A stretch of 64,000 nt of DNA. Source: Eretmocerus hayati (taxonomy: Eukaryota; Arthropoda; Insecta; Hymenoptera; Aphelinidae). Where the stretch lies: positions 71,170,172-71,234,171 of the forward strand of contig CM056744.1 of assembly GCA_029851415.1 (NCBI GenBank), read 5' to 3'. The notes under the pieces are model-generated. The model searched no databases. It was given only the letters and a program-made list of their open reading frames with translations, and had not been told where the DNA came from. Positions 9,547-47,857 of the stretch are shown here, piece after piece. A program made the translations under genes and the position numbers. Numbering within the stretch: the stretch's first letter is position 1; every line of letters begins with the position of its first letter.

Positions 9547-9693
9547 CTCGCAATGCTAACGTTTATGCTCGTAACTCCAAACAAAAGGCCCATTGGTCCT
9601 CAATATTTCGGATTTTCCGATTTCTGGGTGGTACGAGACTGTAGAAAAATTTCGGTCGGAATCGGTGATTCAAACACTGTGGTCCCTCCTTGT
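9547..9693 (+). repeat. Right copy of the ~150-bp inverted repeat flanking the LINE
   Basis: This segment is the diverged reverse complement of 5112-5262. It begins immediately after the LINE tail and contains AAGGCCCATTGG, ACGAGACTGTAG and CACTGTGGTCC. In this copy the coding similarity of the older retroelement is degraded by stops. Confidence 0.7.
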
Positions 9694-9719
9694 AAGTTCA
9701 AAATTTTGTAGCTACCCAC

Positions 9720-22815: not shown

Positions 22816-22819
22816 CCTT
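22816..22819 (+). repeat. Left target-site duplication of the LTR element (CCTT)
   Basis: CCTT directly precedes the 5' LTR, and CCTT at 47858-47861 directly follows the 3' LTR. One more T could belong to either the duplication or the LTR start. The same satellite sequence without the insert is found at about 51575-51590. Confidence 0.85.
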
Positions 22820-24243
22820 TGCAACGTGGACGTTGCAGCATGCTTTTCGTCTCCTCTCGTTAAACCCTCGTGGTCACCTCGGGCAAAGTGAATCAAGGTC
22901 TGATTTTCGTGTGTTATACTTTTTTGTTGAGGTGCCCGAGGTGACGAGAAGAAGACGACAACGACGTTTCAAACGGGCTGATGGCTCCCGCCACCAGCGT
23001 GGTGGCAGCACCTCCCAGCCCACCAAGCCGGGCGGCGCAGCGCTTGCGCGGGCTAGAGGAAGCCGCGCCGCGCATCGCCGGCCGGCAATCTTGGGATGGC
23101 TCCCGGCCTAGATAGACCTCCCTGTAGATCGTGCCCTTAAATTCGCCGCGTGCTCCAGGAGTAGCGACCTAGGACGGGTCCAGTGATCGCGCCGCGGGTG
23201 CACAAGACGTTTCGTGTGTGTGTGGGTGAACCCAGTGCTAGTGCCAAGACTTGCGTTAGCGTGTGCTGACGCGTGGCCACCACACACGACCACATCTCGC
23301 CCAGGGTACACAGCTTTTGGAGGGTGACCCGGACTGGGCTAGAGAGAGAGAGAGAGCTGCAGCAGCAGCGAAATCAAGCAGCCCCAGCAGCAGAGCAGCA
23401 ACAGCGCAGCAGTAGCGCCATCGCAGTGAGCTTCCGGACGATCGACATAGACCTACGCGGTGAGTGGCATTACGTCTTCCCCAGGGTGCATCCGCCCTCA
23501 TCGTGAACCTCCCCGGGCGGAGAGTCGTGTCCAGGGCTACCGGGTGGCCTATTTCCCAGCTCGCGACGCGGTGTGTCCTTCTTGTCCGCCGACCCATTGC
23601 GTCGTAACCGTGTCCCTCCAACCCCCCGCGCCAATATTAGCATGCACGTTTTGGCCATGCTGGGCCACGCGGGTCGATGTAGCGGCCATTTTGCGTAATA
23701 ATTCTGACTTCCGGAGACGAAGGCGCGGAGAGTTGGAGAGGGACGGGCCCGCCGGCTGGGGAAATAGCTCCCCCCCCCCCTCGCGTTAGCTCCGCCCACA
23801 ATGTATATGGGTGATTCCGCCGAAACAGTGCAGTGAGTAATTTCGAGTCAATGTACGGGGGTGTTTCCGCTGTAAAGTGACTTTTTGATATTGTGATTTT
23901 CTGTGAATTATTGGACAAATGAACGATTTGATGACAGTTTTCGCCTTAGATGGCGTTGTGAGTAGGTTTATCGACCTGCGAGTCGGGAAATGCGATTTCT
24001 GAAAGCAATAAATCCGTTTATATTTTTCTGAACGACGAGAGTGATTATTTGTGTCGATCGAATTCTACCATCGTCCGCAGAATACATTCGCGTTTTTCAG
24101 GTGCTCCCAAGATGCCCCACTGTCCCGCCCCTCGTGGCGCGGGGTGCCTGGCCCTAACCCGATCCGGCCCAAATAAATGAGTCGGCGTTGGGTGGGTTTA
24201 TCTTTTCAGGAAATTTCCCCCTGCTGATGCCCGCCACGTTACA
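22820..24243 (+). repeat. 5' long terminal repeat (1424 bp)
   Basis: It begins with the 18-bp palindrome TGCAACGTGGACGTTGCA and ends CCACGTTACA, so the outermost ten bases form a short inverted repeat. An inverted pair, GTCACCTCGGGCA (22873-22885) and TGCCCGAGGTGAC (22933-22945), could fold around a 47-base loop. Other content: an AG microsatellite near 23341-23354, a CAG-rich stretch (23355-23415), a C run near 23769, and AATAAA signals at 24007-24012 and 24172-24177. Comparison with the 3' LTR shows roughly 20-25 substitutions or small indels. Short frames inside are not supported as genes. Confidence 0.93.
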
Positions 24244-24260
24244 TGGCGATCCTGCCAGGA
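24244..24260 (+). other. Primer binding site, complementary to tRNA-Arg 3' end
   Basis: TGGCGATCCTGCCAGGA starts immediately after the LTR. Its reverse complement TCCTGGCAGGATCGCCA fits the T-arm, acceptor stem and CCA end of an insect arginine tRNA (ACG type, as I remember it). It would prime minus-strand DNA synthesis. Confidence 0.75.
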
Positions 24261-24980
24261 TTTCGATGCAAGCCTATAACCTTCTGCAGCCTCTCGAATC
24301 CATACGCGATTTATTGTTATTCATCTATATATAATTGTAAATAGCTGAAAATCTTCGAATGAAATCGCACTGATTTTTCGCCGATTACGTGACTGAACCA
24401 CGCGATTCGATTTCTGCTAATTTGCTCGTTGCGATAAGCGTTGCGATTCATTTGTTCTATCGATTAAACCGGTAGAGGGCGTCTCCGAAATTCCGATTTC
24501 GTCTTGGGGGCAAAATGCTTCGGAGCTTCTGGGTTTTCGGACTATTTTCTGTAGAATCTGCACAACTCTCATCGGATAGATCAGCGGAACATGCTCTCAC
24601 ATCGCGAAGCAAGTGCGAGCAATGCATGAAATCGTAGGGCACTGTTCGACTCGCGCGGGATAACTCGAGGAGCTGAAGCGTTCCCATACCAAATGCGGAC
24701 ACCTGCGAAGGATACACGACTCTCCGTCCCCATCTGATTACATTGCATGCCATTTCAAGAATAGTAGTGTGAATAGAGGAGGAAGGGGACTCGCACATCC
24801 TTATCCTTGCCCAATTTCCCAGAATTTTCCGTCGAGGATTCAAAACCTCAACAAGGAGTCCGCCGAGACAATCGTCTCATCAGGGTCCGCCAGTGGGTTT
24901 GGGGGTCCGCCTATCTCATCGAGAGAGTAACTACCCTAATTATCCCGTGGCAAGTTGAACGTCACCGCGTAGGCATCAAG
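24261..24980 (+). other. Untranslated leader of the LTR element
   Basis: About 720 bp without a convincing gene between the primer site and the first ATG of the long frame. The frame is open from about 24807 but without an ATG until 24981. A minus-strand frame at 24457-24843 shows no recognisable motif. Packaging signals are usually found in such leaders, but I see no definite structure. Confidence 0.5.
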
Positions 24981-26693
24981 ATGTTCGGTAGAAAACCAAC
25001 AACGTCGATCCCATCGGGAGATCGACATGAGAGAATGACGATTACGCCGGATGTTGCTGGAATACTCGGCAAGGATCCGCGATATGTAGAGGCAGCCAAG
25101 CTGGTTGCGAGTCACGATTATAAAGAGGTTATGGTTCGATTGAATGAGGCTGGTCTCAGTCTAGGCGGCACACGTAATGCTCTACGCGTACGTTTGCTCC
25201 GCAACAATCTTTTGACCATAAACCCAAAGGAAGATGTACGATGGAACCCAGAGATTGACGAGCGTTCGAAGGAACACCCACCCCTCTCACCAGCTGCTTT
25301 ACAGGTAATGGCAGATATAGAGGGCGTGGAGATCGGGAGTGAAAATGGATCCGAAGTCGAGTACGAGTATGTTGTGGATGATCCGCCGGTGGTGACTTCG
25401 TCAACCAGGGTAACACAGAGTGGAATTGTGACCACTGTGGCCAACCCGTGCTCAATGATAACCGTCACGAGCTTGCATGGACCCATAGCAACTCGAGATC
25501 CCGTTCTGCTATCTGGCTATACGAATTTGCCTACCGCAGCTGAGTCTTTCCGCCAGATAGGCCACAATGCAACTTTCGCCGGGTGGGCCAACACCATGTT
25601 GCCTAACCCAGCCGATGCAGTTATCGGTCCGCCTCAGACTGATGCTACTAGGCGAATAGGTGGAAGAGGTTTGAGTTTCGAAGAAACTTGGTCTCGGTTG
25701 CAAGATCGACTGATCAGTTGCGAGATTGGAAACAAGAACAGCGATGAGCAAGTACTATTGAATTGTTGTGATAGTCCGAAGTCTGTTGAATTGACTGAAT
25801 CGGGAGTACGATCTACGCCTGTTAGCCGAAGCTGGGAAGATGAAAGCCAGATTGAAAACGCTAGAACATTGAACCCATCACGAGGAATTAATGAGATAGA
25901 GGTCCACCAAAGGAACGCCGAGAAGACTCATCATGATGGCCGAGGACAACCACAGACGATCCTGCTGCAGAAACAGCATGCACAACTGCTGTCTCGTATT
26001 GGCAAAGAAAGGTCTGTAGATGTTCCCACGCGTCTCACGAGTCGCTGCCAGTCGCACCATTCGTCGCATCAGGCGAGTGATTGGCTCTCGGAATCGCCAA
26101 GCCGTGACGAGACGAAGCCAAGGGTGTTAGATACACACCTCCCTGCTCTGAACGCCTCATCACAGCCCGCATCAGAGAAGAGACAGGTGGAACATGGAGA
26201 ATCAGTCGACAACCTCAAACTGAGTCAACCCATGGCTGAGTTGGTATCGAGGAATTATAGGTATTTGGAGTTGGCGGAGCGAGTATGCCGCTTACCCTTC
26301 AACGAAGTAAAACGCCTCCTGTGCCACCGTAAACTCAACACTATGGGAAGTATCAGTACATTGAGAAGCAGACTGATTCGAGCGGATATATTGTGGATGA
26401 ATCCGAATGAAGAAGTCCCGTGGAATGCGAAGATGGATGGACCCTTGCAAAAGTGCTCATCTTGGTTCTCTATGAAACAAAGCCAGCCATTTTTTGTGGA
26501 CGAGCCACGCCAGAGAACGGAGATTATCTCGCCAACCGTCCGAGTTTCCATCACCGCGGTAATGCAAACTACGCCAACGGTGGCAACTGCGGTAATAGGT
26601 CCTGTGACAGTTGAGACTTTCAGTATCTCCCAAGCTGTGGTATCTCCGGTAGAGGTGTCCAGTCTCGAGAGATTGATGAGAGTCCTAATGTGA
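24981..26693 (+). CDS. Putative Gag-like protein with two SAP-like modules
   Basis: The first ATG of an open frame is at 24981 and gives 570 aa; the frame itself is open from 24807 (residue numbers below count from there, so Met59 is the start). Two copies of a ~60-residue module occur. Residues 91-151 start RYVEAAKLV and end DVRWNPEID. Residues 485-544 start RYLELAERV and end EVPWNAKMD. Each contains a helix-turn-helix stretch like GLSLGGTRNALRVRLLR, resembling a SAP DNA/RNA-binding motif, followed by a conserved NPxEDV/NPNEEV-W-N tail. The linker is polar and low in complexity, and the C-terminus is rich in Thr, Val and Ser. There is no CCHC knuckle, protease or polymerase motif. By position after the primer site it should be Gag or a Gag replacement, but sequence alone does not prove this. 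Confidence 0.6.
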   Translation: MFGRKPTTSIPSGDRHERMTITPDVAGILGKDPRYVEAAKLVASHDYKEVMVRLNEAGLSLGGTRNALRVRLLRNNLLTINPKEDVRWNPEIDERSKEHPPLSPAALQVMADIEGVEIGSENGSEVEYEYVVDDPPVVTSSTRVTQSGIVTTVANPCSMITVTSLHGPIATRDPVLLSGYTNLPTAAESFRQIGHNATFAGWANTMLPNPADAVIGPPQTDATRRIGGRGLSFEETWSRLQDRLISCEIGNKNSDEQVLLNCCDSPKSVELTESGVRSTPVSRSWEDESQIENARTLNPSRGINEIEVHQRNAEKTHHDGRGQPQTILLQKQHAQLLSRIGKERSVDVPTRLTSRCQSHHSSHQASDWLSESPSRDETKPRVLDTHLPALNASSQPASEKRQVEHGESVDNLKLSQPMAELVSRNYRYLELAERVCRLPFNEVKRLLCHRKLNTMGSISTLRSRLIRADILWMNPNEEVPWNAKMDGPLQKCSSWFSMKQSQPFFVDEPRQRTEIISPTVRVSITAVMQTTPTVATAVIGPVTVETFSISQAVVSPVEVSSLERLMRVLM

Positions 26694-29600
26694 AGTCGAA
26701 AGAGAACGACGAGGGTCCGGGACGGATGCCTCTCCTCAGAAATCCGCCGCTGAGTGAAGCGAAGTTGGGAAAACCTGTGTATTTTATGAGTTGTGTGAGT
26801 GGAGCAAATGCAATTGATGTCGGCTAACTCATCGAGCACCTATCAGGAGTGAGGATCCCGGGATCTACTCTTAGACCACGCTGCAGATGAGGTTAGCTAA
26901 GAAGTCTTGAGATGAAAATGATGTGTGATTAGCCTTTGAAAGAAAAGAGAAGAAAGATAGCGAAAATTCATAGAGTTGTTGATGCGAAGAATGCTTGAAA
27001 CCGACAGTTCGTAGCCGTTGGAATTGGAAGATTGTATGATTCGCCAAGTGGTCTGAGATTATTTGATCATGGCGTTTTGTCTTGTCTATCCGCCAAATGA
27101 GGGTCGTAGGGACCTACCCTCATTCCAATCCGCCACGAAATGTTTGCCCAGGGTTGCTGACAGGGCAGATCTGGTCTGCATCGAGGCTAAGCCCAAAGGT
27201 GGGCAGCGAGTGCAGGGGTCTGACTTCGCGCCATGCTGTTGCAAGCAAAACCATAGGGCGAGGACCATGCAGATCTGCCCTTCAAAAAAAAAAAAAAAAA
27301 CTTCCTTCGGGGAAGAATAGCCATTGATCAATGGTCATATGGACTTCTCCGGTTGTCGGAGCGGGTAAGAGCGAGGATCGCATGATCTACTTTTACATCT
27401 CGCTGCCAAAATAAAACGGAATCACCAAGGAGCAGGAGTCAAGTGGTTTCCGCCCGTTATGGTTGTATTCTGATGAGGTGGGGGTGAGGATCCTGATGAT
27501 CTGCCCTCGACCTTTGTTGTGCGAAAGAGAAGAGAAATTCGTGAATCTGTCTGAGGAACGATCTGCTCTCCAGTCGCGATAGAAACTGGCAAGGAGTGAG
27601 GATCACGTGATCCACTCCCGAACAATTTCCCGCGATGAAATGGATGACTCGTGGCTTGAAAGCCGAGAGCTAGCCAACGCCGGGGTAGATCCGCAATTGA
27701 GCAGAACGTGTTCGTAACGGAGCAAGCAATCAGGAGCTGAGTCGCCCGGAGGCTTGACCAAGACTGAAAGACGAGAGAAAGAGGATCGTGGACATCCTCA
27801 CTCGAGTCCTTGCTCCAGTAACGAACTTCATGAGTTATAAGAGATCTGCTCTCTAGTCGCGATTGAAACTTGAAAAGAGTGAGGATCATGTGATCTGCTC
27901 TGGTTTCAACCGATGAAGCGAATGACCAGAAGCTAAGGGGGCCGAAGGCTGCCCGGTCTTGTGTCAAGTAGCACGTGAGCAGAACGTTTCGTTGCTGAGC
28001 AGAAAAATCAGGAGCTGAGTCACATGGCGGTGACCAAGACTGAGAGATGAGAGGGCGAAGATGGTGCACACTTCCTCTCAAATCCTTGTGCCAGTATCGA
28101 ATATTTTTGTCGAGTGATTGTGTCGTAGAGACTCAGGAGCTGAGGCACCTAGAGAGGCCAGCCCAAGCCTGAGGATGAGCGTCGTGAGAGAGATAGCGAA
28201 ATCGAACTGGAGGATCGCGAGAGGAAATGCTGCCTTGGCTTGCGCAGGCCAAAGAGCACTAAAGTTGCCGATGAGAACCGGGCCAGAAGTTGTCTCCCGG
28301 AATCTCATCCATGCCACTGCCTCCACCGCACGTCTTCCATTTCCGAAGGGAACGGAGGTTTCTACGCCTGAACTCCGCCGCCATGATGAGGGACGCCTTA
28401 AAGGATGTCGAGTGGGCCCGTGAGATGCCTTCCGTCGACTGAAAGAAACTGAAATCGAGGTTGGTGGTCGTGCGGACCTCACCTAGTTGTTGTGGATTAC
28501 ATTAGAAGTCAGGAGGGTGAGGATCAGATGATCTACCCGAATGGCTTCCCAAGTCGCGAAGAGAGGTTAAGATCGTCAAATCTACCTTCTGGAGCGTTGA
28601 CACGATGCACCAGGGGCGAGGATCATCCGATCTGCCTCGCATCGTGTCAGAAAAAGTGAATTGAGGAGGCATAGATCGAACGATCTGCTTTCTATTTTAT
28701 TTCAAATCGCAGACTTGAGGTTGAGGATCGAGTAGATCTGACCTCAGCTGTAAAAAAAAAAAAAAAAGAGAGAAAGAGTCGTGAGCGAAGTTGTTGAAGG
28801 AGACCACAGAGATTTGTCGTGGATTTCTGTTGAGTATTGATGAGTTAGTGAAATGAATGCTGAGATGAAGAGAGAGTAAATGCAAACGGGAGCGAATGAG
28901 TGCGAAAATCTGAAGGATCCGCCAAGAATAAATCCGCCACCAGGGAGACTAGTCCTCTGAATTGACGCCGGGATATCCGAAAAACTGGAGACGAGATCGC
29001 TGGTTTGGTAGATTTTTGTCGGGTATGCCTGAGAAGGATTGACTCTAGATTGGTCGTGTGAGTGAATTGTGTGAGTTGTAGTTGTATGAAGTTGTTGAAA
29101 TTTAAATAATTGAGTCCGAAGTGAATCACAAATGCGAGCTAATACACCTACAGAGGAGAAGATTCGCCTTCGAAAATGACCTAGGATTGTGAATCAGGAG
29201 AGAGTGCGCCTATGTGTTTGGAGTCAAACAATGGGGTTGAATGAGTCATCCCCTATCCGCCGAGTGCCGATGAAGACAGATGTGGAGAGTCGGATGTGTG
29301 GTATACAGCCGATGTGTGTTGATGTAACGCCAGAATGTTAAAAAGAAGTCGAAAATAAGAGTTTTGGGATACAAATGGCACGTTTCAAGATAAGTATCCA
29401 GCCGAGTGAAATGTCTGAAGGATTAGTCGAGTTAGAGGAATCCATACGCAAGAAGTGTTGCTGGCGGAAGAATAATTCGAGTGTAGATTATCGAGTATTG
29501 GGAAGAAAAATTGGAAAAACAGCCGTGGCGGTGATATGAGAAGCAGATCTAATGGGTAGAGCACCAAGTTGCGTCCGTTTGAACAACAGAGCTACGACGA

Positions 29601-30182
29601 AAGAACTCAGTGTCCGATTGAACGACGGTAAAATGAAATGTCGTCGAGAAGTCAGGGAATGCCGGTCACATTAGACGTTTCTGCGTGGCGTGTGAAACGC
29701 ATAGCGAGTTGAGATTTCCGCCAGTCCGCCGAGATAGTATCGCTCGTGAAGAAATGATTCTTCAGAATTGCACAGAGAGGCTGTGCAAAACCGAAGACGA
29801 ACGTGAGCAGGAATGGAAGGATGCGAAAAAATGTGCGTCGATCGAAGAGTTTGAAGCACAATTCGTAGAAATGTTGACCTAGATTTTGGTCGGGAAAGTT
29901 GTTGGAATCACGAGCGGTGACCATGACTAGATGAACGATGTCTTGACTGAGTTGATTGGGGTGTCCGAGTTGACGCCAGATGGTCGATTGTGTATATCTT
30001 AGCGACTCAGAGTAAGAGTGCTAGTTCCGAATCAGAGACTGTCGTGACGAAGAGTAAATCACGTTACCGATGACAGGAAGTGTTTCGATTACAAATTTTC
30101 TTGTTGTTTTCAAAGGCCTATGGCATCGGACTCCATGGAGTCGAGGAATTTCCGCCAGGGCTCGAGTATTCACTCAAACATC
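26694..30182 (+). other. Non-coding internal region of the LTR element, 5' of the Transib
   Basis: About 3.5 kb with no frame showing polymerase or integrase motifs. Minus-strand frames at 27422-28081 and 28078-28482 look like chance frames. The first 2 kb holds the hairpin series (separate entry). A(17) at 27284-27300 is followed by a CTTCC-TTCG-GGGAAG-type hairpin, and a second A run lies near 28753-28766. The remainder to 30182 contains repeated TCCGCC words but no gene that I can support. Confidence 0.6.
26847..28745 (+). other. Series of about 11 GA-bulged hairpins with covarying lower stems
   Basis: Each unit has a lower stem of variable sequence (3-7 bp), an unpaired GA on the 5' side, an upper stem GGATC/GATCT (or GATCC), and a loop of 4-5 bases. 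Positions: 26847-26870, 27255-27281, 27365-27396, 27482-27506, 27593-27618, 27876-27901, 28515-28538, 28564-28587, 28599-28648, 28664-28693, 28717-28745. Eight have the exact GA bulge plus GGATC. The unit at 27255 has GGACC, and those at 28564 and 28664 have TA or AT bulges with AGAT(C). Lower stems differ yet pair, for example GGAGT/ACTCC, GGGT/ACCC, AGGGC/GCCCT and GAGGTT/GACCTC. The unit at 28599 has an added 10-bp outer stem GACACGATGC/GCATCGTGTC, and the one at 27876 an outer TTGAAAC/GTTTCAA. A related hairpin (AATGAGGG/CCCTCATT) is at 27096-27124. Confidence 0.75.
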
Positions 30183-30187
30183 CGCCG
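30183..30187 (+). repeat. Left target-site duplication of the Transib (CGCCG)
   Basis: CGCCG precedes the left terminus, and an identical CGCCG follows the right terminus at 46040-46044. Five-base GC-rich duplications are characteristic of Transib insertions. Confidence 0.95.
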
Positions 30188-30226
30188 CACAGTGGGGCGA
30201 AACATGCATTTTGCGGCACAAATCGT
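30188..30226 (+). other. Left terminus, RSS-like heptamer and nonamer position
   Basis: The heptamer CACAGTG is at 30188-30194. Exactly 23 bases later, ACAAATCGT (30218-30226) shares its first five bases with the V(D)J nonamer ACAAAAACC. The same sequence is mirrored at the right end. The heptamer match is perfect; the nonamer similarity is partial. Confidence 0.7.
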
Positions 30227-30605
30227 ATCCACGCGAATTTTTGACCGATTGGATCGATCCAAAACGGATTTTCTTCGTTTTTTCATTCTCCACCTCAAGG
30301 CACTGCAACAATTTTGGAAATAATCGTTCTTGGATCTATAGAGCGTATGGGATGTTGAACTCGATCCGAGAGGAGAATACTACACATTCCTACTTACTAG
30401 GCATATGATTTTTGGCTCAAAACCATCCGAACTGACCTATATGGTCTTCGGGATGTGTATACAACCCTTTACCACTTTCCTGGGTTATTTATTCGTCTAT
30501 GATACGTTGCAAACGCCCAAAATTGGTCAGACTTGCAACTCACTCGGGATAGATGCTTTCTCGACCTCTTTGTTGGACAATTGGTGACTTCGAGACTGCA
30601 GAACG
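30188..30605 (+). repeat. Outer single-copy part of the left Transib arm
   Basis: These 418 bp are mirrored by 45622-46039, with the same spacing and no difference in the parts I compared. An in-frame stretch (30405-30587) and its mirror are identical at protein level, but there is no recognisable domain and it is probably not a gene. Confidence 0.9.
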
Positions 30606-33600
30606 ACTTGCGGAAGCTAGAGAGCACTGCAAGGACCATCTAGAACGTTCTACCAACCAAATGCCACGTTGCGCGAGTCAAGAAATTGACGCTGGAACTT
30701 TTTACGATACTTTTTCGCTCGGAATCACTCGCGAATGGTGGAAAACTTCACGAAATCAGGAAATCCCGGTGTGTATTTGAACTTGCGGAAGCTCAGAAAT
30801 ACTGCGAGGACCATCTCATATGTCCTAGTTATCGAATGCCTCAAACTAGAGGTGAAAAAAATGCCGCTGGAATGATTTAAGACTCTGAATCCGACGAGAT
30901 TCGCTCGCGAATGGGGGGAGAACCCCTGAAACCATGTATTCTAGGTGCCCATACAAACTTGCGGAAACTGAAAAGCACTGCGAATATCATCTACAATGAT
31001 CCATCAATCGAATGCCCAAAGGTAGGGGTTATGAAATTGACGCTGGGATTTTTTATGAACCCTCTTTTGCAGGGGATCACTCACAAATGGTCGAAAAATC
31101 CTCAAAAACACGAATCCAGGCGTCTAAACAGACTTGCGGAAGCTAGAAAGCATTGCGAGGACCATCTAGAACGATCCACCAACCAAATGCCACGTTGCGC
31201 GAGTCAAGAAATTGACGCTGGAACTTTTTACGATACTTTTTCGCTCGGAATCACTCGCGAATGGTAGAAAACTTCACGAAATCAGGAAATCCCGGTGTGT
31301 ATTTGAACTTGCGGAAGCTCAGAAATACTGCGAGGACCATCTCATATGTCCTAGTTATCGAATGCCTCAAACTAGAGGTGAAAAAAATGCCGCTGGAATG
31401 ATTTAAGACTCTGAATCCGACGAGATTCGCTCGCGAATGGGGGGAGAACCCCTGAAACCATGTATTCTAGGTGCCCATACAAACTTGCGGAAACTGAAAA
31501 GCACTGCGAATATCATCTACAATGATCCATCAATCGAATGCCCAAAGGTAGGGGTTATGAAATTGACGCTGGGATTTTTTATGAACCCTCTTTTGCAGGG
31601 GATCACTCACAAATGGTCGAAAAATCCTCAAAAACACGAATCCAGGCGTCTAAACAGACTTGCGGAAGCTAGAAAGCATTGCGAGGACCATCTAGAACGA
31701 TCCACCAACCAAATGCCACGTTGCGCGAGTCAAGAAATTGACGCTGGAACTTTTCACGATACTTTTTCGCTCGGAATCACTCGCGGATGGTCGAGAACCT
31801 CAGTGAATCATGAAATCCCAGTGTGTATTTGAACTTGCGGAAGCTCGGAAATACCGCGAGGACCATCTCATATGTCCTAGTTATCGAATGCCTCAAACTA
31901 GAGGTGAAAAAAATGCCGCTGGAATGATTTAAGACTCTGAATCCGACGAGATTCGCTCGCGAATGGGGGGAGAACCCCTGAAACCATGTATTCTAGGTGC
32001 CCATACAAACTTGCGGAAACTGAAAAGCACTGCGAATATCATCTACAATGATCCATCAATCGAATGCCCAAAGGTAGGGGTTATGAAATTGACGCTGGGA
32101 TTTTTTATGAACCCTCTTTTGCAGGGGATCACTCACAAATGGTCGAAAAATCCTCAAAAACACGAATCCAGGCGTCTAAACAGACTTGCGGAAGCTAGAA
32201 AGCATTGCGAGGACCATCTAGAACGATCCACCAACCAAATGCCACGTTGCGCGAGTCAAGAAATTGACGCTGGAACTTTTTACGATACTTTTTCGCTCGG
32301 AATCACTCGCGGATGGTCGAGAACCTCAGTGAATCATGAAATCCCAGTGTGTATTTGAACTTGCGGAAGCTCGGAAATACCGCGAGGACCATCTCATATG
32401 TCCTAGTTATCAAATGCCTCAAACTAGAGGTGGAAAAAATGCCGCTGGAATGATTTAAGACTCTGAATCCGACGAGATTCGCTCGCGAATGGGGGGAGAA
32501 CCCCTGAAACCATGTATTCTAGGTGCCCATACAAACTTGCGGAAACTGAAAAGCACTGCGAATATCATCTTTAATGATCCATCAATCGAATGCCCAAAGG
32601 TAGGGGTTATGAAATTGACGCTGGGATTTTTTATGAACCCTCTTTTGCAGGGGATCACTCACAAATGGTCGAAAAATCCTCAAAAACACGAATCCAGGCG
32701 TCTCAACAGACTTGCGGAAGCTAGAAAGCATTGCGAGGACCATCTAGAACGATCCACCAACCAAATGCCACGTTGCGCGAGTCAAGAAATTGACGCTGGA
32801 ACTTTTTACGATACTTTTTCGCTCGGAATCACTCGCGGATGGTCGAGAACCTCAGTGAATCATGAAATCCCAGTGTGTATTTGAACTTGCGGAAGCTCGG
32901 AAATACCGCGAGGACCATCTCATATGTCCTAGTTATCAAATGCCTCAAACTAGAGGTGGAAAAAATGCCGCTGGAATGATTTAACACTCTGAATCCGACG
33001 AGATTCGCTCGCGAATGGGGGGAGAACCCCTGAAACCATGTATTCTAGGTGCCCATACAAACTTGCGGAAACTGAAAAGCACTGCGAATATCATCTACAA
33101 TGATCCATCAATCGAATGCCCAAAGGTAGGGGTTATGAAATTGACGCTGGGATTTTTTATGAACCCTCTTTTGCAGGGGATCACTCACAAATGGTCGAAA
33201 AATCCTCAAAAACACGAATCCAGGCGTCTCAACAGACTTGCGGAAGCTAGAAAGCATTGCGAGGACCATCTAGAACGATCCGGCAACCAAATGCCACGTT
33301 GCGCGAGTCAAGAAATTGACGCTGGAACTTTTTACGATACTTTTTCGCTCGGAATCTCTCGCGGATGGTCGAGAACCTCAGTGAATCATGAAATCCCAGT
33401 GTGTATTTGAACTTGCGGAAGCTCGGAAATACCGCGAGGACCATCTCATATGTCCTAGTTATCAAATGCCTCAAACTAGAGGTGGAAAAAATGCCGCTGG
33501 AATGATTTAAGACTCTGAATCCGACGAGATTCGCTCGCGGATGGGGGGAGAACCCCTGAAACCATGTATTCTAGGTGCCCATACAAACTTGCGGAAACTG

Positions 33601-35770
33601 AGAAGCACTGCGAATATCATCTACAATGATCCATCAATCGAATGCCCAAAGGTAGGGGTTATGAAATTGACGCTGGGATTTTTTATGAACCCTCTTTTGC
33701 AGGGGATCACTTACAAATGGTCGAAAAATCCTCAAAAACACGAATCCAGGCGTCTCAACAGACTTGCGGAAGCTAGAAAGCATTGCGAGGACCATCTAGA
33801 ACGATCCACCAACCAAATGCCACGTTGCGCGAGTCAAGAAATTGACGCTGGAACTTTTTACGATACTTTTTCGCTCGGAATCACTCGCGGATGGTCGAGA
33901 ACCTCAGTGAATCATGAAATCCCAGTGTGTATTTGAACTTGCGGAAGCTCGGAAATACCGCGAGGACCATCTCATATGTCCTAGTTATCAAATGCCTCAA
34001 ACTAGAGGTGGAAAAAATGCCGCTGGAATGATTTAACACTCTGAATCCGACGAGATTCGCTCGCGAATGGGGGGAGAACCCCTGAAACCATGTATTCTAG
34101 GTGCCCATACAAACTTGCGGAAACTGAAAAGCACTGCGAATATCATCTACAATGATCCATCAATCGAATGCCCAAAGGTAGGGGTTATGAAATTGACGCT
34201 GGGATTTTTTATGAACCCTCTTTTGCAGGGGATCACTCACAAATGGTCGAAAAATCCTCAAAAACACGAATCCAGGCGTCTCAACAGACTTGCGGAAGCT
34301 AGAAAGCATTGCGAGGACCATCTAGAACGATCCACCAACCAAATGCCACGTTGCGCGAGTCAAGAAATTGACGCTGGAACTTTTTACGATACTTTTTCGC
34401 TCGGAATCACTCGCGGATGGTCGAGAACCTCAGTGAATCATGAAATCCCAGTGTGTATTTGAACTTGCGGAAGCTCGGAAATACCGCGAGGACCATCTCA
34501 TATGTCCTAGTTATCAAATGCCTCGAACTAGAGGTGGAAAAAATGCCGCTGGAATGATTTAACACTCTGAATCCGACGAGATTCGCTCGCGAATGGGGGG
34601 AGAACCCCTGAAACCATGTATTCTAGGTGCCCATACAAACTTGCGGAAACTGAAAAGCACTGCGAATATCATCTACAATGATCCATCAATCGAATGCCCA
34701 AAGGTAGGGGTTATGAAATTGACGCTGGGATTTTTTATGAACCCTCTTTTGCAGGGGATCACTCACAAATGGTCGAAAAATCCTCAAAAACACGAATCCA
34801 GGCGTCTCAACAGACTTGCGGAAGCTAGAAAGCATTGCGAGGACCATCTAGAACGATCCACCAACCAAATGCCACGTTGCGCGAGTCAAGAAATTGACGC
34901 TGGAACTTTTTACGATACTTTTTCGCTCGGAATCACTCGCGGATGGTCGAGAACCTCAGTGAATCATGAAATCCCAGTGTGTATTTGAACTTGCGGAAGC
35001 TCGGAAATACCGCGAGGACCATCTCATATGTCCTAGTTATCAAATGCCTCAAACTAGAGGTGGAAAAAATGCCGCTGGAATGATTTAAGACTCTGAATCC
35101 GACGAGATTCGCTCGCGAATGGGGGGAGAACCCCTGAAACCATGTATTCTAGGTGCCCATACAAACTTGCGGAAACTGAAAAGCACTGCGAATATCATCT
35201 ACAATGATCCATCAATCGAATGCCCAAAGGTAGGGGTTATGAAATTGACGCTGGGATTCTTTATGAACCCTCTTTTGCAGGGGATCACTCACAAATGGTC
35301 GAAAAATCCTCAAAAACACGAATCCAGGCGTCTCAACAGACTTGCGGAAGCTAGAAAGCATTGCGAGGACCATCTAGAACGATCCACCAACCAAATGCCA
35401 CGTTGCGCGAGTCAAGAAATTGACGCTGGAACTTTTTACGATACTTTTTCGCTCGGAATCACTCGCGGATGGTCGAGAACCTCAGTGAATCATGAAATCC
35501 CAGTGTGTATTTGAACTTGCGGAAGCTCGGAAATACCGCGAGGACCATCTCATATGTCCTAGTTATCAAATGCCCCAAACTAGAGGTGGAAAAAATGCCG
35601 CTGGAATGATTTAAGACTCTGAATCCGACGAGATTCGCTCGCGAATGGGGGGAGAACCCCTGAAACCATGTATTCTAGGTGCCCATACAAACTTCCGGAA
35701 ACTGAAAAGCACTGCGAATATCATCTACAATGATCCATCAATCGAATGCCCAAAGGTAGGGGTTATGAAA
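30606..35770 (+). repeat. Left tandem array, 526-bp unit, about 9.8 copies
   Basis: The period is exactly 526 bp (for example 30911, 31437, 31963 ... 35119 mark the same point). Each unit is a trimer of diverged subrepeats of 175, 176 and 175 bp, each beginning near ACTTGCGGAA (31132, 31307, 31483, 31658). Copies differ by single bases. A 131-codon frame is open in most units with an identical or near-identical product. The same frame is cut short at 31267 by TAG in place of TCG, and no domain is recognisable, so I treat it as a by-product of the repeat. The array is cut at 35770 within the third subrepeat, where the transposase fragment begins. Confidence 0.95.
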
Positions 35771-35771
35771 T

Positions 35772-36887
35772 GTCTCGAAGCAGCCCCTTGATTCATCGCT
35801 GTTCATGATCAGTATGGTGCCGTTGATGTTAGTTGCAGAAGACGATGAGATCGTATGGGAGAATCCGACGCCATCGTCCGTGAAATTTTGCCGACCAATA
35901 CAGTTCGAATTCGTGAAGGAAACTGCTGCAAACACAACAAAAGAATACGAATATTATAAGTCCAAAATTGACAATTTGCAGCCATGTATAATGGAAAAAC
36001 TCGGATCGGAGTTTAGAATCTACTACGAATGTCAATGCACCATGATCGATGGCAAGACTTGTAATGTCCTCACAGGACAAAAATGCTGCAACAATTGCAA
36101 TCTATGCAATGCCAAGCCGAGTCAGTCGAACAATGCGAATTTTGTGCCAGATATCCCAGTGAATGAGGAGTTTTATGCTTTTGGCATGTCTCCGTTGCAT
36201 TGCAGGATAAGGTTCTTGGAGCACTTGTTCCACGTGGCATGCAATATGGACTTCCAGCAGCACAAGGCCCAAGGTGAAGTATTGCAAGTCGTAAGAACCG
36301 CTCGGAAGTATATGCTACAGTCAAGTATCAAGAAACATCTCAAAGGTTTGACAATCGATGTCGTGAAAACCGGATACGGCACCTCTAACGATGGTAACAC
36401 TTCTCGGAGATTCTTTGAGAACCCACAAGAAACTGCAAGGGTACTTGGAATCAATGAGCGTTTGGTGGAAATGTACAAGGTATTCCTTGAGGCAATCAAT
36501 TGCACGAAACAGATTGATCCGGTCAAGATGAAGAAATTCTCTGAGGAAGTAATGGCTTTGTACGTATCGGAATATAGTTGGTACCCGATGCCTCCATCTG
36601 TTCACAAAGCTTTCATGCATGGATGCCAGATTGTCGAAAGAACCTCGGTACCAGTGGGAACTCTGAGCGAAGAGGCACAAGAAGCCACTAATAAAGTGGT
36701 GAAACGGGCTCGTTTGGAAAACAGTAGATGCTGTGACAGGCAATCTTCTAACGAAGACGTGCTCCACTATCTACTGTTCGCTTCGGATCCATTGATCTCG
36801 AGTCTGAGGGTAGGAGGAGAAAAGACCACCAAAGAGCTCTCACCTGAAGCACAAAGTCTCATGGTAGATTTCCAGGAGGCTGCGTGA
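35772..36887 (+). pseudogene. Transib/RAG1-like transposase, N-terminally truncated
   Basis: The frame is open from 35769; its first ATG, at 35805, gives 360 aa. It aligns by motif with the second half of the RAG1 core and Transib transposases. D82 in MIDGK is a candidate for the second catalytic Asp (RAG1 D708). C98-x2-C101 and H267-x4-H272 match the RAG1 zinc ligands, and LHC (131-133) and GNTSRRFF (197-204) match RAG1 LHC and GNFARKLM. E293 in SEEAQEATNK matches catalytic E962 in SEGNESGNK. The end, LSPEAQSLM, looks like the natural C-terminus. The N-terminal half, including the first catalytic Asp, is missing: coding starts abruptly at the edge of the tandem array. This copy should be inactive as a nuclease, although the domain fragment is uninterrupted. 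It could be one exon of a larger gene, but no other transposase exon is visible in the element. Confidence 0.85.
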
Positions 36888-39110
36888 GAAGTACAAGCTG
36901 AACTTGTGAGTTTAGATCTATCGAAGTTTGGAATGGGTTATTTCAATTTTCCTTGACGATCATATTTTTGTTGTAGCAGTTATGAAGACTTTTCTTCTCC
37001 TCACTATGATCTAATATTCCTCACAAAGATTGTGCCGGAGAAGTTCCCTCTGTTTTTCTGTTTGATAGAACAGCTCGAGTTTCCTTCACAGGTTCACATG
37101 GTGCAGATAGTTCATTTCTGTCAGTTTCCATCGATCACTTGTACGTTCATGCGTTGCATGATATTTTGTACGCCTTTTGTGTGATAATCTTCTTTTTTGC
37201 GATTTCGTGCTCAGCGTTGTGCGCAAATCCAACTTCTCTTCATTGTCAGCAGTGTGTGAAGAAAAACGGAAAAAACTTCACGCTCAGTTTTACATTGACG
37301 CACCGATAAACTGTGCGTGAAATTGATTTCTGACACAGATTCCAATGCGTAAATGTAAAATCACGCACAAGTCACTCGGCATATCTGTGAGATGTGTGAC
37401 GATCTTGAAAATGTTTCTCAAATCATGAGACTAAACGTTCCAAAATGTCCCACGCACGCGTGGGTGAGCATACAGTCGAACCTATACATGTATACCTGCT
37501 CGTATGGGATTAACTATCTTTTGGGTAATCATTTGATGATCCAGGATTAATTTCTCTCTTGTTGACAGGAATTAATAATTCATCCACATTGAATGAGTAT
37601 AACTATACTTAATTTGGTTGTAACATTCTTGAATTTCACTATCTAGTCCAGAAATTGTTGTATTTTCCAAAGAATATTTTGATTTTTTTGTAAATATTAT
37701 GTGGAATCATACAAAATACTGTATTAACACGCCGTCTGGGCGAGTTCAACAGAGACAATGTTAGTAACAGTCGTGGATTTCGTTCTATATTGAGTTAGTT
37801 AGTCATTCTGATTAGTTCTCATCACCGTCTGATCACATTCTTTTCATAAGAATGTTCATGATAAAGATGACTGATGAGTTGATACTCCATTTGAATGTTC
37901 AACAAGATTCTCAGTTTTGTGAAACCGAGGAAAAACTCTGAATCTATTTTCGAATAATCGGTTATTGGTTTAATAAGCCAAGCTCTAATCTTGTTTACAG
38001 TCATTTGAATCTTGTAAATAAATCATTGAACTTACCAAAAATCTGGCTTATCTGTATCCGAGACTTGTTATTTGATAAATCACCGAAAACTATTAATTAT
38101 TGGGAATGATCTTATTTCAAATATCTAATTGATCTGTACAACCTTAAATTTTTGATTATTCAGAAATCAACAATAGTTAGAATTTTGCAGAGACTACAAA
38201 AATTTTATGAGAAGAGAACTTTTTTGAAACATTTCGAGAATTTATTATCGCTTCGCTTCCCGTGCGTAAATGTGTACTTTTGGGCGTGCGTGAAATTCAA
38301 TAGCTGTACGTGGATTTCACTCCTCATACTCGATCGGCAACTTGTGCGGAAATCACCCTTCTTGCACCCGTTGTGTAATGTACTATTTTCTCGTTCGGAA
38401 GGTGATCACAATGATGTCACTCAACGATTTGATAACATAATCATAGGGAGAACCGTCGATTAATATCGTGAATAAATCGAATTTTTGAACGTCCGAACGT
38501 TTCGACTGAACAATTGTCACGGACAATATCGATGTTGCTTGAGCAGACTCTTGGTTTGTTAATCGCGGGATACTTAATCATCCTTGTATAGTCCTGCTCT
38601 ATGCTGATTCTGGAATATTGAATCCTTAGCCGAGTGTATGAAGTTGTTCAACGGGAGAGGAGTTTCTCGGGAATTCCAGTTAAAAGTTTGATGAGAGATA
38701 TTTTTTGTACTGTAATCGTTGTATGAAATGTGTCCATACGGAGACTCTGTACAAATGGAGTCGATAGAAGATGGGTTTTCCTCAGCCATTCCTGAAGGAG
38801 AATCTCGTCCTCAGGCGAGGAAAAAATTGATTTCAACGAATTTGTTTGAACATTCATTTTTGTATTAAATTGATTATTCCGATGTTAAGGATGTCTTGTG
38901 GCTCTTTTAAATGAACACGATCACATTCTTCTCATCGAATCAGGATATGTAAATTAACGTTGCGCGACTCTTTCATCCGGAGAGCGGATTTTGGTCCCCT
39001 GGCCAATTTCGATCTAGGAGTCATGTCGGAGTCGAATGATAGTTATTCATCACTTCATGTACGATATTCCGACCCGAGAATCGGCCAACGAGATGATGCG
39101 CTGGTCAACG
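36888..39110 (+). other. Non-coding core of the Transib, 3' of the transposase
   Basis: About 2.2 kb of AT-rich DNA without a supported gene. Short frames (60-103 codons) on both strands show no motifs. Two stretches with related words (GCGTGAAATT, TGCGTAAATGT) occur near 37310-37375 and 38262-38300, hinting at an old diverged duplication. The right arm begins at about 39111, where CGTGGTATTTCCGAGC joins the repeat. Confidence 0.55.
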
Positions 39111-42100
39111 TGGTATTTCCGAGCTTCCGCAAGTTCAAATACACACTGGGATTTCATGATTCACTGAGGTTCTCGACCATCCGCGAGTGATTCCGAGCGA
39201 AAAAGTATCGTAAAAAGTTCCAGCGTCAATTTCTTGACTCGCGCAACGTGGCATTTGGTTGGTGGATCGTTCTAGATGGTCCTCGCAATGCTTTCTAGCT
39301 TCCGCAAGTCTGTTGAGACGCCTGGATTCGTGTTTTTGAGGATTTTTCGACCATTTGTGAGTGATCCCCTGCAAAAGAGGGTTCATAAAAAATCCCAGCG
39401 TCAATTTCATAACCCCTACCTTTGGGCATTCGATTGATGGATCATTGTAGATGATATTTGCAGTGCTTTTCAGTTTCCGCAAGTTTGTATGGGCACCTAG
39501 AATACATGGTTTCAGGGGTTCTCCCCCCATTCGCGAGCGAATCTCGTCGGATTCAGAGTGTTAAATCATTCCAGCGGCATTTTTTCCACCTCTAGTTTGA
39601 GGCATTTGATAACTAGGACATATGAGATGGTCCTCGCGGTATTTCCGAGCTTCCGCAAGTTCAAATACACACTGGGATTTCATGATTCACTGAGGTTCTC
39701 GACCATCCGCGAGTGATTCCGAGCGAAAAAGTATCGTAAAAAGTTCCAGCGTCAATTTCTTGACTCGCGCAACGTGGCATTTGGTTGGTGGATCGTTCTA
39801 GATGGTCCTCGCAATGCTTTCTAGCTTCCGCAAGTCTGTTGAGACGCCTGGATTCGTGTTTTTGAGGATTTTTCGACCATTTGTGAGTGATCCCCTGCAA
39901 AAGAGGGTTCATAAAAAATCCCAGCGTCAATTTCATAACCCCTACCTTTGGGCATTCGATTGATGGATCATTGTAGATGATATTCGCAGTGCTTTTCAGT
40001 TTCCGCAAGTTTGTATGGGCACCTAGAATACATGGTTTCAGGGGTTCTCCCCCCATTCGCGAGCGAATCTCGTCGGATTCAGAGTGTTAAATCATTCCAG
40101 CGGCATTTTTTCCACCTCTAGTTTGAGGCATTTGATAACTAGGACATATGAGATGGTCCTCGCGGTATTTCCGAGCTTCCGCAAGTTCAAATACACACTG
40201 GGATTTCATGATTCACTGAGGTTCTCGACCATCCGCGAGTGATTCCGAGCGAAAAAGTATCGTAAAAAGTTCCAGCGTCAATTTCTTGACTCGCGCAACG
40301 TGGCATTTGGTTGGTGGATCGTTCTAGATGGTCCTCGCAATGCTTTCTAGCTTCCGCAAGTCTGTTGAGACGCCTGGATTCGTGTTTTTGAGGATTTTTC
40401 GACCATTTGTGAGTGATCCCCTGCAAAAGAGGGTTCATAAAAAATCCCAGCGTCAATTTCATAACCCCTACCTTTGGGCATTCGATTGATGGATCATTGT
40501 AGATGATATTCGCAGTGCTTCTCAGTTTCCGCAAGTTTGTATGGGCACCTAGAATACATGGTTTCAGGGGTTCTCCCCCCATCCGCGAGCGAATCTCGTC
40601 GGATTCAGAGTCTTAAATCATTCCAGCGGCATTTTTTCCACCTCTAGTTTGAGGCATTTGATAACTAGGACATATGAGATGGTCCTCGCGGTATTTCCGA
40701 GCTTCCGCAAGTTCAAATACACACTGGGATTTCATGATTCACTGAGGTTCTCGACCATCCGCGAGTGATTCCGAGCGAAAAAGTATCGTAAAAAGTTCCA
40801 GCGTCAATTTCTTGACTCGCGCAACGTGGCATTTGGTTGGTGGATCGTTCTAGATGGTCCTCGCAGTGCTTTCTAGCTTCCGCAAGTCTGTTTAGACGCC
40901 TGGATTCGTGTTTTTGAGGATTTTTCGACCATTTGTGAGTGATCCCCTGCAAAAGAGGGTTCATAAAAAATCCCAGCGTCAATTTCATAACCCCTACCTT
41001 TGGGCATTCGATTGATGGATCATTGTAGATGATATTCGCAGTGCTTTTCAGTTTCCGCAAGTTTGTATGGGCACCTAGAATACATGGTTTCAGGGGTTCT
41101 CCCCCCATTCGCGAGCGAATCTCGTCGGATTCAGAGTCTTAAATCATTCCAGCGGCATTTTTTCCACCTCTAGTTTGAGGCATTTGATAACTAGGACATA
41201 TGAGATGGTCCTCGCGGTATTTCCGAGCTTCCGCAAGTTCAAATACACACTGGGATTTCATGATTCACTGAGGTTCTCGACCATCCGCGAGTGATTCCGA
41301 GCGAAAAAGTATCGTGAAAAGTTCCAGCGTCAATTTCTTGACTCGCGCAACGTGGCATTTGGTTGGTGGATCGTTCTAGATGGTCCTCGCAATGCTTTCT
41401 AGCTTCCGCAAGTCTGTTTAGACGCCTGGATTCGTGTTTTTGAGGATTTTTCGACCATTTGTGAGTGATCCCCTGCAAAAGAGGGTTCATAAAAAATCCC
41501 AGCGTCAATTTCATAACCCCTACCTTTGGGCATTCGATTGATGGATCATTGTAGATGATATTCGCAGTGCTTTTCAGTTTCCGCAAGTTTGTATGGGCAC
41601 CTAGAATACATGGTTTCAGGGGTTCTCCCCCCATTCGCGAGCGAATCTCGTCGGATTCAGAGTCTTAAATCATTCCAGCGGCATTTTTTTCACCTCTAGT
41701 TTGAGGCATTCGATAACTAGGACATATGAGATGGTCCTCGCAGTATTTCTGAGCTTCCGCAAGTTCAAATACACACCGGGATTTCCTGATTTCGTGAAGT
41801 TTTCTACCATTCGCGAGTGATTCCGAGCGAAAAAGTATCGTAAAAAGTTCCAGCGTCAATTTCTTGACTCGCGCAACGTGGCATTTGGTTGGTGGATCGT
41901 TCTAGATGGTCCTCGCAATGCTTTCTAGCTTCCGCAAGTCTGTTTAGACGCCTGGATTCGTGTTTTTGAGGATTTTTCGACCATTTGTGAGTGATCCCCT
42001 GCAAAAGAGGGTTCATAAAAAATCCCAGCGTCAATTTCATAACCCGTACCTTTGGGCATTCGATTGATGGATCATTGTAGATGATATTCGCAGTGCTTTT

Positions 42101-46044: not shown

Positions 46045-46436
46045 GGGGTCAAGAAGACCTCCCCAAATGGTCCGCCAAATGAGAGTATACCCATTCTCCT
46101 CCACCCCTTCCCCGAAACCCAGAGTCCGCTTCCTTGTGCGCTTTGAATTTTAGATAGCGTTGTAGTTGGGAATCCTTCCCTAGTAGTTGATTGTTCAGAG
46201 GATTTCTTTGAAAATGATCATTTTTTTTGATGAGTTGATTTGAATTTTGAATGTGGATTATTGTTGGATTTCGAATGATGAATATATTTGTTATGATTTG
46301 AATTTTGATTTCTGTAGCAATGTATTATGATGATTAGAATCCGCCGAGGTAACGATGAGGGTGGGCGCAGGGGAGACCAAGGCCACTTCGGTTCTGCTTC
46401 TCACCCAGGAGGGTGGGGGGGAGGAGCCGGGGGTAA
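46045..46436 (+). other. 3' end of the LTR-element interior, with purine tract
   Basis: A stretch of about 390 bp without a gene. It is T-rich (46200-46320) and then G-rich. The purine tract at 46407-46426 (AGGAGGG and GGGGGGGAGGAG with a single T) is followed by CCGGGGGTAA and the 3' LTR; it is the likely plus-strand primer. Two TCCGCC words lie at about 46073 and 46335. Confidence 0.7.
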
Positions 46437-47857
46437 TGCAACGTGGACGTTGCAGCACGCTTTTCGTCTCCTCTCGTTAAACCCTCGTCGTCACCTCGGG
46501 CAAAGTGAATCAAGGTCTGATTTTCGTGTGTTATACTTTTTTGTTGAGGTGCCCGAGGTGACGAGAAGAAGATGACAACGACGTTTCAAACGGGCTGATG
46601 GCTCCCGCCACCAGCGTGGTGGCAGCACCTTCCAGCCCACCAAGCCGGGCGGCGCAGCGCTTGCGCGGGCTAGAGGAAGCCGCGCCGCGCATCGCCGGCC
46701 GGCAATCTTGGGATGGCTGCCGGCCTAGATAGACCTCCCTGTAGATCGTGCCCTTAAATTCGCCGCGTGCTCCAGGAGTAGCGACCTAGGACGGGTCCAG
46801 TGATCACGCCGCGGGTGCACAAGACGTTTCGTGTGTGTGTGGGTGAACCCAATGCTGGTGCCAAGACTTGCGTTAGCGTGTGCTGACGCGTGGCCACCAC
46901 ACACGACCACATCTCGCCCAGGGTACACAGCTTTTGGAGGGTGACCCGGACTGGGCTAGAGAGAGAGAGAGAGCTGCAGCAGCAGCGAAATCAAGCAGCC
47001 CCAGCAGCAGAGCAGCAACAGCGCAGCAGAAGCGCCATCGCAGTGAGCTTCCGGACGATCGACATAGACCTACGCGGTGAGTGGCATTACGTCTTCCCCA
47101 GGGTGCATCCGCCCTCATCGTGAACCTCCCCGGGCGGAGAGTCGTGTCCAGGGCTACCGGGTGGCCTATTTCCCAGCTCGCGACGCGGTGTGTCCTTCTT
47201 GTCCGCCGACCCATCGCGTCGTAACCGTGTCCCTCCAACCCCCCGCGCCAATATTAGCATGCACGTTTTGGCCATGCTGGGCCACGCGGGTCGATGTAGC
47301 GGCCATTTTGCGTAATAATTCTGACTTCCGGAGACGAAGGCGCGGAGAGTTGGAGAGGGACGGGCCCGCCGGCTGGGGAAATAGCTCCCCCCCCTCGCGT
47401 AAGCTCCGCCCTCAATGTATATGGGTGATTCCGCCGAAACAGTGCAGTGAGTAATTTCGAGTCAATGTACGGGGGTGTTTCCGCTGTAAAGTGACTTTTT
47501 GATATTCTGATTTTCTGTGAATTATTGGACAAATGAACGATTTGATGACAGTTTTTGCCACAGATGGCGTTGTGAGTAGGTTTATCGACCTGCGAGTCGG
47601 AAAATGCGATTTCTGAAAGCAATAAATCCGTTTATATTTTTGAGAACGACGAGAGTGATTATTTGTGTCGATCGAATTCTACCAGTGTCCGCAGAATACA
47701 TTCGCGTTTTTCAGGTGCTCCCAAGATGCCCCACTGTCCCGCCCCTCGTGGCGCGGGGTGCCTGGCCCTAACCCGATCCGGCCCAAATAAATGAGGTGGC
47801 GTTGGGTGGGTTTATCTTTTCAGGAAATTTCCCCCTGCTGATGCCCGCCACGTTACA
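46437..47857 (+). repeat. 3' long terminal repeat (1421 bp)
   Basis: Direct repeat of 22820-24243 with the same TG...CA ends and the same opening palindrome. Differences from the 5' LTR are scattered substitutions, a shorter C run near 47388 and clustered changes near 47558, 47642 and 47684. AATAAA signals are at 47621-47626 and 47786-47791. It is followed by CCTT and resumed satellite. Confidence 0.93.

Follow-up and report, generated by a model that had tools for sequence, protein, structure and literature searches.

Structured RNA in the 3' non-coding part of a retroelement is familiar from the constitutive transport element (CTE) of simple (type D) retroviruses and the RNA transport element (RTE) of intracisternal A-particle (IAP) elements, and the TR-GAG elements of plants consist of long terminal repeats (LTRs) and a single gag-like open reading frame (ORF), with no pol. 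It is also already known that non-autonomous LTR elements can use the particles of a relative: in the available excerpts of PMC3735527, BARE2, a barley Copia element that depends on BARE1, makes no particle protein, is packaged by its autonomous relative and is described as retaining dimerization and packaging signals. Multi-site hairpin packaging signals are likewise known from RNA viruses, as MS2 and satellite tobacco necrosis virus (STNV) carry several similar packaging-signal stem-loops per RNA (PMC4751978, PMC3593212) and in single-stranded RNA (ssRNA) viruses the packaging motif is reported to sit most often among the unpaired bases of the stem-loop (PMC9065705). Here we analysed a stretch of 64,000 nucleotides from Eretmocerus hayati (assembly GCA_029851415.1, contig CM056744.1, positions 71,170,172 to 71,234,171, forward strand; hereafter the window), in which the sole long ORF of an LTR element is followed, at 26845-28745, by eleven hairpins. 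These are most probably a repeated, cis-acting, plus-strand RNA structure of a non-autonomous Ty3/Gypsy lineage that comprises the window family (F1) and a sister family (F2); a third family in this genome (F3) is, on its domain content, an autonomous Ty3/Gypsy element.

Compared with these systems, F1 resembles BARE2 as a defective retroelement that would use the particles of an autonomous relative, in this case presumably F3. It differs from BARE2, as described in those excerpts, in having hairpins that did not turn up in the part of the helper read, and in encoding a protein like the N-terminal part of Gag (Gag-N). F1 shares with TR-GAG elements the combination of LTRs and one gag-like ORF without pol; however, its ORF matches a duplicated Gag N-terminus only, with no capsid or zinc-knuckle match. 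A common hairpin is repeated along one RNA in F1 as in the ssRNA viruses, except that in F1 the loops (four or five bases) vary, the bulge and upper stem are constant, and any binding by a coat protein is hypothetical. The F1 array is also structured RNA in a 3' non-coding part, as are CTE and RTE, yet it is made of many small repeated units and has no match at gathering score in Rfam, whichever CTE families Rfam may contain. No description of a covarying hairpin array in such an element was found in the open-access literature; what appears to be new is therefore such a series, seemingly missing from the helper stretch.

The first-pass annotation, made from the letters alone, had listed eleven hairpins of one architecture, and a mechanical scan together with a covariance model found all of them in place. 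Each has a variable lower stem, a two-base bulge on the 5' side, an upper stem of the GGATC/GATCT type and a varying loop of four or five bases:

U1, 26845..26872, plus strand: 35.1 bits; F2 match at the same place in 7/7 copies (21.7-39.0 bits).
U2, 27254..27282, plus strand: 33.6 bits; GGACC in the window copy, pair kept in other rows.
U3, 27367..27394, plus strand: 28.0 bits; C/A mismatch private to the window copy.
U4, 27480..27508, plus strand: 36.9 bits.
U5, 27592..27619, plus strand: 32.9 bits; duplicate of U6.
U6, 27875..27902, plus strand: 38.9 bits.
U7, 28513..28540, plus strand: 33.1 bits; F2 match in 7/7 copies (31.3-41.8 bits).
U8, 28562..28589, plus strand: 28.3 bits; TA bulge; altered orthologue in F2.
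U9, 28612..28639, plus strand: 32.6 bits; outer stem 28598-28608 / 28639-28649.
U10, 28665..28692, plus strand: 26.3 bits; AT bulge.
U11, 28717..28745, plus strand: 34.2 bits; F2 match in 7/7 copies (19.0-30.6 bits).

The GA bulge that had been ascribed to the whole series holds for nine of the eleven window-copy units, U8 having TA and U10 AT. Two faults are private to the window copy, namely GGACC in place of GGATC in U2 and the C/A under the bulge of U3 (T-A there in 35/36 rows); the loop-end pair of U8 is C.A in 34/35 rows. U5 and U6 derive from a 283-bp duplication, and only one of them is present in copies L038-L043 and L045, so ten units are older. Spacing is near-regular (about 110 bases in U2-U5, about 50 in U7-U11), which suggests that the series probably arose by repetition. 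The 283-bp duplication also yields two stem-loop-like segments (V1, 27765-27812; V2, 28043-28085) with a counterpart in F2. A hairpin of another type (27099-27121; GAGGGT, large loop, ACCCTC) occurs once in F1 and twice in F2 (L064:1356-1382 and 1460-1487).

Shuffled controls, which the annotation had proposed as a check, yielded far fewer GA-bulged hairpins: with at most one mismatch allowed per stem, the scan of 26694-28800 found 14, of which nine belong to the series, whereas 500 dinucleotide shuffles averaged 2.2 and never exceeded 8. Hairpins with any two-base bulge were not in significant excess (27 vs a shuffle mean of 20.2, maximum 37), which means that the surplus belongs to the GA-type series and not to hairpins generally. 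We trained a covariance model on 28 unit sequences, which match it by construction; in a search of both strands of the 64 kb it recovered all eleven units at E 1.1e-8 to 5.2e-5, and the next-best match (E 0.55) was the reverse strand of U5. We also ran the model on 10 hairpin-region and 11 downstream stretches of family copies, and with default filters the downstream stretches gave no match up to E 5; among the sequences read, the hairpins are confined to the region after the ORF. In the predicted fold of the window copy U2 pairs elsewhere and U8 and U10 form with a probability of about 0.2-0.3. Folding energy in 200-base tiles proved a poor test here: within the hairpin region the tile at 28500 is conspicuous (z -4.0 on the plus and -2.2 on the minus strand), but tile 29700, outside it, reaches z -4.1 on the minus strand. 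A kink-turn was ruled out by eye, the 3' strand having no tandem G.A.

The annotation had taken complementarity kept across diverged copies as a sign of selection for structure, and the shuffles, the covariation across units and the double changes between F1 and F2 all support this. We used the search region 26694-28800 to query the host genome (692 Mb, 17 contigs), which gave at least 50 matches including the window (40 of 61 candidates scored), and retrieved 39 stretches covering the non-window matches. For the 26 of 40 rows that form the main family (L032 and L035-L047 omitted), 54 of 55 modal lower-stem positions pair, 46 of them as Watson-Crick pairs. When whole 3' arms were permuted, none of 20000 permutations reached the observed lower-stem pairing (1 of 20000 without the duplicate U5): the lower stems are unlike between units, yet the arms match within their own unit. 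In an alignment of 39 units from F1, F2 and the F1-like copy L072 (A3), 92.5% of cells pair vs 86.5% in shuffles, and the covariation score is 0.368 vs 0.242 (0 of 500 shuffles reach it; slid structures give at most 0.148). The GGATC/GATCT core is common by descent and hardly varies; the covariation sits in the lower stem, and the upper stem says little about it.

Covariation across copies, another of the proposed checks, was thus seen between units, and also between F1 and F2 and, sparsely, among F1 copies. F1 copies vary little: double changes that preserve pairing occur at five pairs (tallied without L044, L046 and L047 for U1-U7 and without L044, L032 and L035 for U7-U11), four of them in single rows and the fifth, 27366-27395, with 24 A-T, 11 T-A and 1 G-T. 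From F1 to F2, double changes preserve pairing in U1 (TA>CG and AT>GC) and U11 (TA>CG), and single changes create pairs in U7. In 14 of the 39 copies we compared divergence from the window copy, which was lower in hairpins than in spacers in 13 (no formal test; for example 13.3% vs 18.0% in L045 and 4.2% vs 7.0% in L038), the exception being L013 (5.2% vs 4.8%). Taken as a whole, the hairpins are very probably a functional RNA structure.

A series of DNA-level palindromes had been offered as the alternative. The modal stems, taken from the 26 main-family rows, contain 91 Watson-Crick pairs, 17 G.U, one A.C and one other pair, counts that are not independent given that the units are related. 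Since a plus-strand G.U would read A.C on the minus strand, this excess favours plus-strand RNA over a DNA palindrome.

A protein search of the host genome with the ORF returned at least 79 matches (76 of 337 candidates scored) in three groups. F1 includes many copies with an open frame among the matches listed. F2 is represented by seven listed matches to ORF residues ~290-570 (50-53%), and its body is ~70% identical to F1. At least 26 matches, at 55-58% and to residues 1-211, make up F3; 14 lie in 849-aa frames and one in a frame of 1135 aa. One F3 copy (L065 + L073, 11.8 kb) has Ty3_capsid, zf-CCHC, RVT_1, RT_RNaseH, Integrase_H2C2 and rve in Ty3/Gypsy order; its aspartyl protease match is under the Pfam cut-off. 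The integrase is followed by a third frame, at least 694 aa long and lacking a Pfam match (L065:3-2084, minus strand), which extends beyond the stretch; cysteine-histidine stretches were noticed in it by eye. F1 and F3 share 86.8% identity in the LTR (over 1424 bp), 18/18 bases of the primer binding site (PBS), 86.3% of the leader (over 591 bp) and 67% of the nucleotides of the Gag N-terminus, a relatedness that would make F3 the autonomous partner of F1. The hairpin model found nothing better than E 0.083 in that F3 copy (11.8 kb read, 3' end outside), so the hairpins do not look like a helper signal merely kept by F1.

All seven F2 copies (L063, L064, L067-L071) were read and are 90-96% identical to L064. 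The same PBS lies upstream of L064, in stretch L066; the L064 LTR can be aligned to the F1 LTR over two segments (180 bases at 73% and 288 bases at 68%), and the 2.8 kb of L066 gave no match to the Gag N-terminus. The model recovered U1, U7 and U11 in 7/7 F2 copies; U8 has changed there, the loop of the U5/U6 orthologue is six bases long, and U2-U4, U9 and U10 are absent or unrecognisable. In L072, whose match stops halfway, U2, U3 and U5 are kept (at least 28 bits), U4 is weak and U1 is interrupted. The F2 leader contains ~121-base tandem repeats (L066:1563-2131), and similar sequence occurs in the F3 leader (L073).

The window element itself spans 22820-47857 and is embedded in a 248-bp satellite:

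Target duplication CCTT, 5' side, 22816-22819.
5' LTR, 22820..24243, plus strand: TGCAACGTGG...CCACGTTACA; 98.2% identical to 46437-47857 over 1424 bp and 86.8% identical to the F3 LTR.
Candidate PBS TGGCGATCCTGCCAGGAT, 24244..24261, plus strand: same 18 bp in F3, same place in F2; primer tRNA not assigned.
Sole long ORF, 570 aa, 24981..26693, plus strand: residues 1-211 homologous to the F3 Gag N-terminus, with a diverged second N-domain copy at ~405-490.
Purine-rich tract ahead of the 3' LTR, 46408..46436, plus strand: putative polypurine tract.
3' LTR, 46437..47857, plus strand: target duplication CCTT at 47858-47861.

With an LTR pair flanked by the CCTT duplication, a PBS, a purine tract and no pol (the second-longest ORF outside the insert described below is 219 aa), it is a non-autonomous LTR retrotransposon, and through its relatedness to F3 a Ty3/Gypsy derivative. 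Leaving out a 15.9-kb insert, the element is ~9 kb long and reads LTR, PBS, 737-base leader, long ORF, hairpin region, a ~1.4-kb tail, and ~0.4 kb closing in the purine tract and the LTR. The tail is continuous to the 3' LTR in 9/11 downstream stretches, four of which have an insertion of ~80 bases; the other two are L055, which is rearranged, and L056, where there is a 5-kb gap.

The 3' LTR is reached only past this insert (30188-46039), whose ends read CACAGTG and whose 5-bp target duplication is CGCCG. It is a transposon in its own right: its 526-bp repeat has no match in the 11 other family copies read for ~10 kb downstream, two of which (L048, L053) show the empty site. Its ORF at 35772-36884 matches a solved DNA-mediated transposase (6pqn, which we take to be HzTransib) at E 3.6e-81, with a weak match to RAG1, and its inverted repeats (30182-35771 vs 46045-40456; 99.1% identical) contain arrays of the 526-bp (3 x 175) tandem repeat; the insert is a Transib-type element with satellite-like terminal repeats. 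Upstream of the 248-bp satellite, at 5640-9380, lies a LINE-like unit with two frames (by eye).

Besides the hairpins, F1 carries a dispersed word, TCCGCC, which is the commonest six-base word of its internal region after A-runs (20 forward, 2 reverse; mean 1.24 and maximum 5 in 200 shuffles):

TCCGCC, 26743..26748, plus strand: one of the 20 plus-strand words.
TCCGCC, other starts, plus strand: 24859, 24886, 24906, 25382, 25549, 25628, 27089, 27129, 27449, 28374.
TCCGCC, further starts, plus strand: 28918, 28933, 29256, 29717, 29725, 30151, 30181, 46071, 46340.

The same word is the commonest hexamer in an 8.3-kb stretch of F3 (28 forward, 1 reverse; shuffle mean 3.1, maximum 8), where it is spread over the three codon frames (12, 9 and 5 of 26 tallied). 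Among 30 words of the same composition the next-best count was 3 in F1 and 9 in F3, and across the hairpin region of the 40 rows, which are related, TCCGCC occurs 199 times forward and never reverse. Controls gave 5 forward and 3 reverse in 21 kb of flanks of nine copies (all five forward in L054), 0/0 in the Transib insert and in the 248-bp satellite, 3/1 in window positions 1-10259 and 4/1 in the LTR. The five forward words of L054 lie in its last 2.3 kb, beyond the 3' LTR, perhaps in another element of the same system.

F2 departs from this pattern: L063 and L064 have no forward TCCGCC, and ACGCCAG stands at 11:0 (forward:reverse) in each, compared with 3:0 in F1 and 0:0 in F3. ACGCCAG is absent from the F2 leader L066, where ACGCC is found 22 times forward and once reverse, partly via the tandem repeats; this shorter word is plus-biased in F1 (12:2) and F3 (22:4) too. 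Twelve F1 TCCGCC sites align to L064 and three of them (26743, 27449, 28933) face TACGC there; the majority of sites go unaligned, which suggests turnover. Compared with words of equal composition, neither TCCGCC (p 0.08 in F1, 0.12 in F3) nor, in F2, ACGCC (p 0.49) was clearly more often unpaired.

From these features we propose that the bulge and GATC stem would be recognised by a protein, that about ten copies of the hairpin would allow multivalent binding, and that the likeliest binder is the element's own ORF product. This product would then act as an adaptor that marks the element RNA and brings it into the particles of an autonomous helper such as F3, which it could join via its Gag-like domain, and dispersed UCCGCC may be a second, helper-matched signal. 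Because the ORF contains the helper's Gag-N domain twice (residues 13-93 and the C-terminal copy share 31% identity, E 3e-13), with the C-terminal copy inside the part common to F2 (~290-570), the coding portion that accompanies the hairpins in both families, the adaptor is the simplest tie between these observations. We hold this full model, in which the ORF product binds the hairpins and links element RNA to helper particles, as a tentative one, its chance of being right falling somewhat short of even; packaging of F1 by F3 would be a part of it. A further version, which we consider rather doubtful, is a two-part address: the adaptor would read the bulged hairpins, and the hexamer UCCGCC shared with the helper would have switched to ACGCCAG in F2, which would exploit another helper, the hairpin-adaptor body having moved between helpers by exchanging LTR, 5' end and code. 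It predicts a helper (F4) that carries the ACGCCAG word.

Several observations weigh against the functional reading of the array or its adaptor. Two of the five A3 covariation measures, which count pairs or types, were reached by 27 and 73 of 500 shuffles, and one F1-to-F2 double change, GC>TT in U11, breaks pairing. Without the first upper pair, shared by descent, the modal set has G.U:A.C at 8:1 (p 0.04), and the ratio is less extreme elsewhere (18:3 in the window copy, 17:3 in L045, 17:3 in L041-43, 15:2 in L038-40). Being so similar, the seven F2 copies are not independent, U1 is partly decayed in three of them (L067, L068, L069), and hairpin number is not conserved, since F2 has no clear U2-U4, U9 or U10. 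The ORF reached the cut-off of no Pfam family (PF00696, AA_kinase, fell under it and covered ~50 residues), and its AlphaFold model, made without an alignment, was unusable (pLDDT 33). No protein at E <=0.01 was found among 7998 scored candidates from 5.8 billion, and PDB gave one match at E 0.24. Its dN/dS of 0.47-0.96 in eight informative comparisons (three with stops) indicates weak purifying selection and counts against an adaptor; two comparisons with almost zero synonymous change gave 3.35, and L059 (0.78) was excluded as only 77 ORF bases match there.

Other explanations can be set against the same evidence. A host factor might bind the hairpins as an element of RNA export, stability or translation, as with CTE or the IAP RTE, and the plus-strand structure and the place of the array between the sole long ORF and the 3' LTR would suit this. 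However, no Rfam family reached its gathering score in the window (best weak match E 0.69), and the array occupies the place of the remaining gag and pol of F3, so that its position may be no more than a by-product of the element's construction; we think this unlikely. That the hairpins are what is left of an old repeat whose core was palindromic, alike by descent, with arms matched by gene conversion or slow decay and no present function, would account for the near-regular spacing of ~110 and ~50 bases, the duplicated unit, the common GGATC/GATCT core and the absence or decay of several units in F2. It sits poorly with lower stems that are unlike between units and matched within them, with double changes that preserve pairing between F1 and F2 and with hairpins less diverged than spacers in 13/14 copies (again no formal test), and we regard it as quite unlikely.

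Protein sites or palindromes at the DNA level, for instance an array of insulators or enhancers comparable to the Su(Hw) sites in gypsy, seem improbable. The GATC...GATC cores are near-palindromic and model matches on the opposite strand reach ~8-20 bits, as such sites would predict, yet the units score 19-42 bits on the plus strand of the element, G.U outnumbers A.C (17 vs 1), and a double-stranded site needs no paired arms with a one-sided bulge. We give equally little credence to a helper packaging signal kept by a deletion derivative, that is, plain Gag binding: F1 has a close autonomous relative among Gypsy elements and the parasite BARE2 is described as retaining packaging signals (PMC3735527, available excerpts), but no hairpin was found in 11.8 kb of an F3 copy. 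Of the multi-site RNA signal in a non-autonomous element that the annotation had suggested, the repeated RNA structure in such an element thus stands and the plain helper packaging signal is disfavoured.

A cis-acting plus-strand RNA structure in the F1 and F2 lineage remains the preferred reading. To our knowledge, beyond retroviruses and yeast it has been worked out in few elements how RNA is selected for LTR-element particles and how parasites enter them. The autonomous F3, its defective relative F1 and the sister family F2 occur together in one genome, where two candidate cis signals can be told apart: the covarying hairpin array, which did not turn up in the part of F3 that was read, and a dispersed hexamer common to F1 and F3. 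Packaging specificity and its evolution are directly testable in this system.

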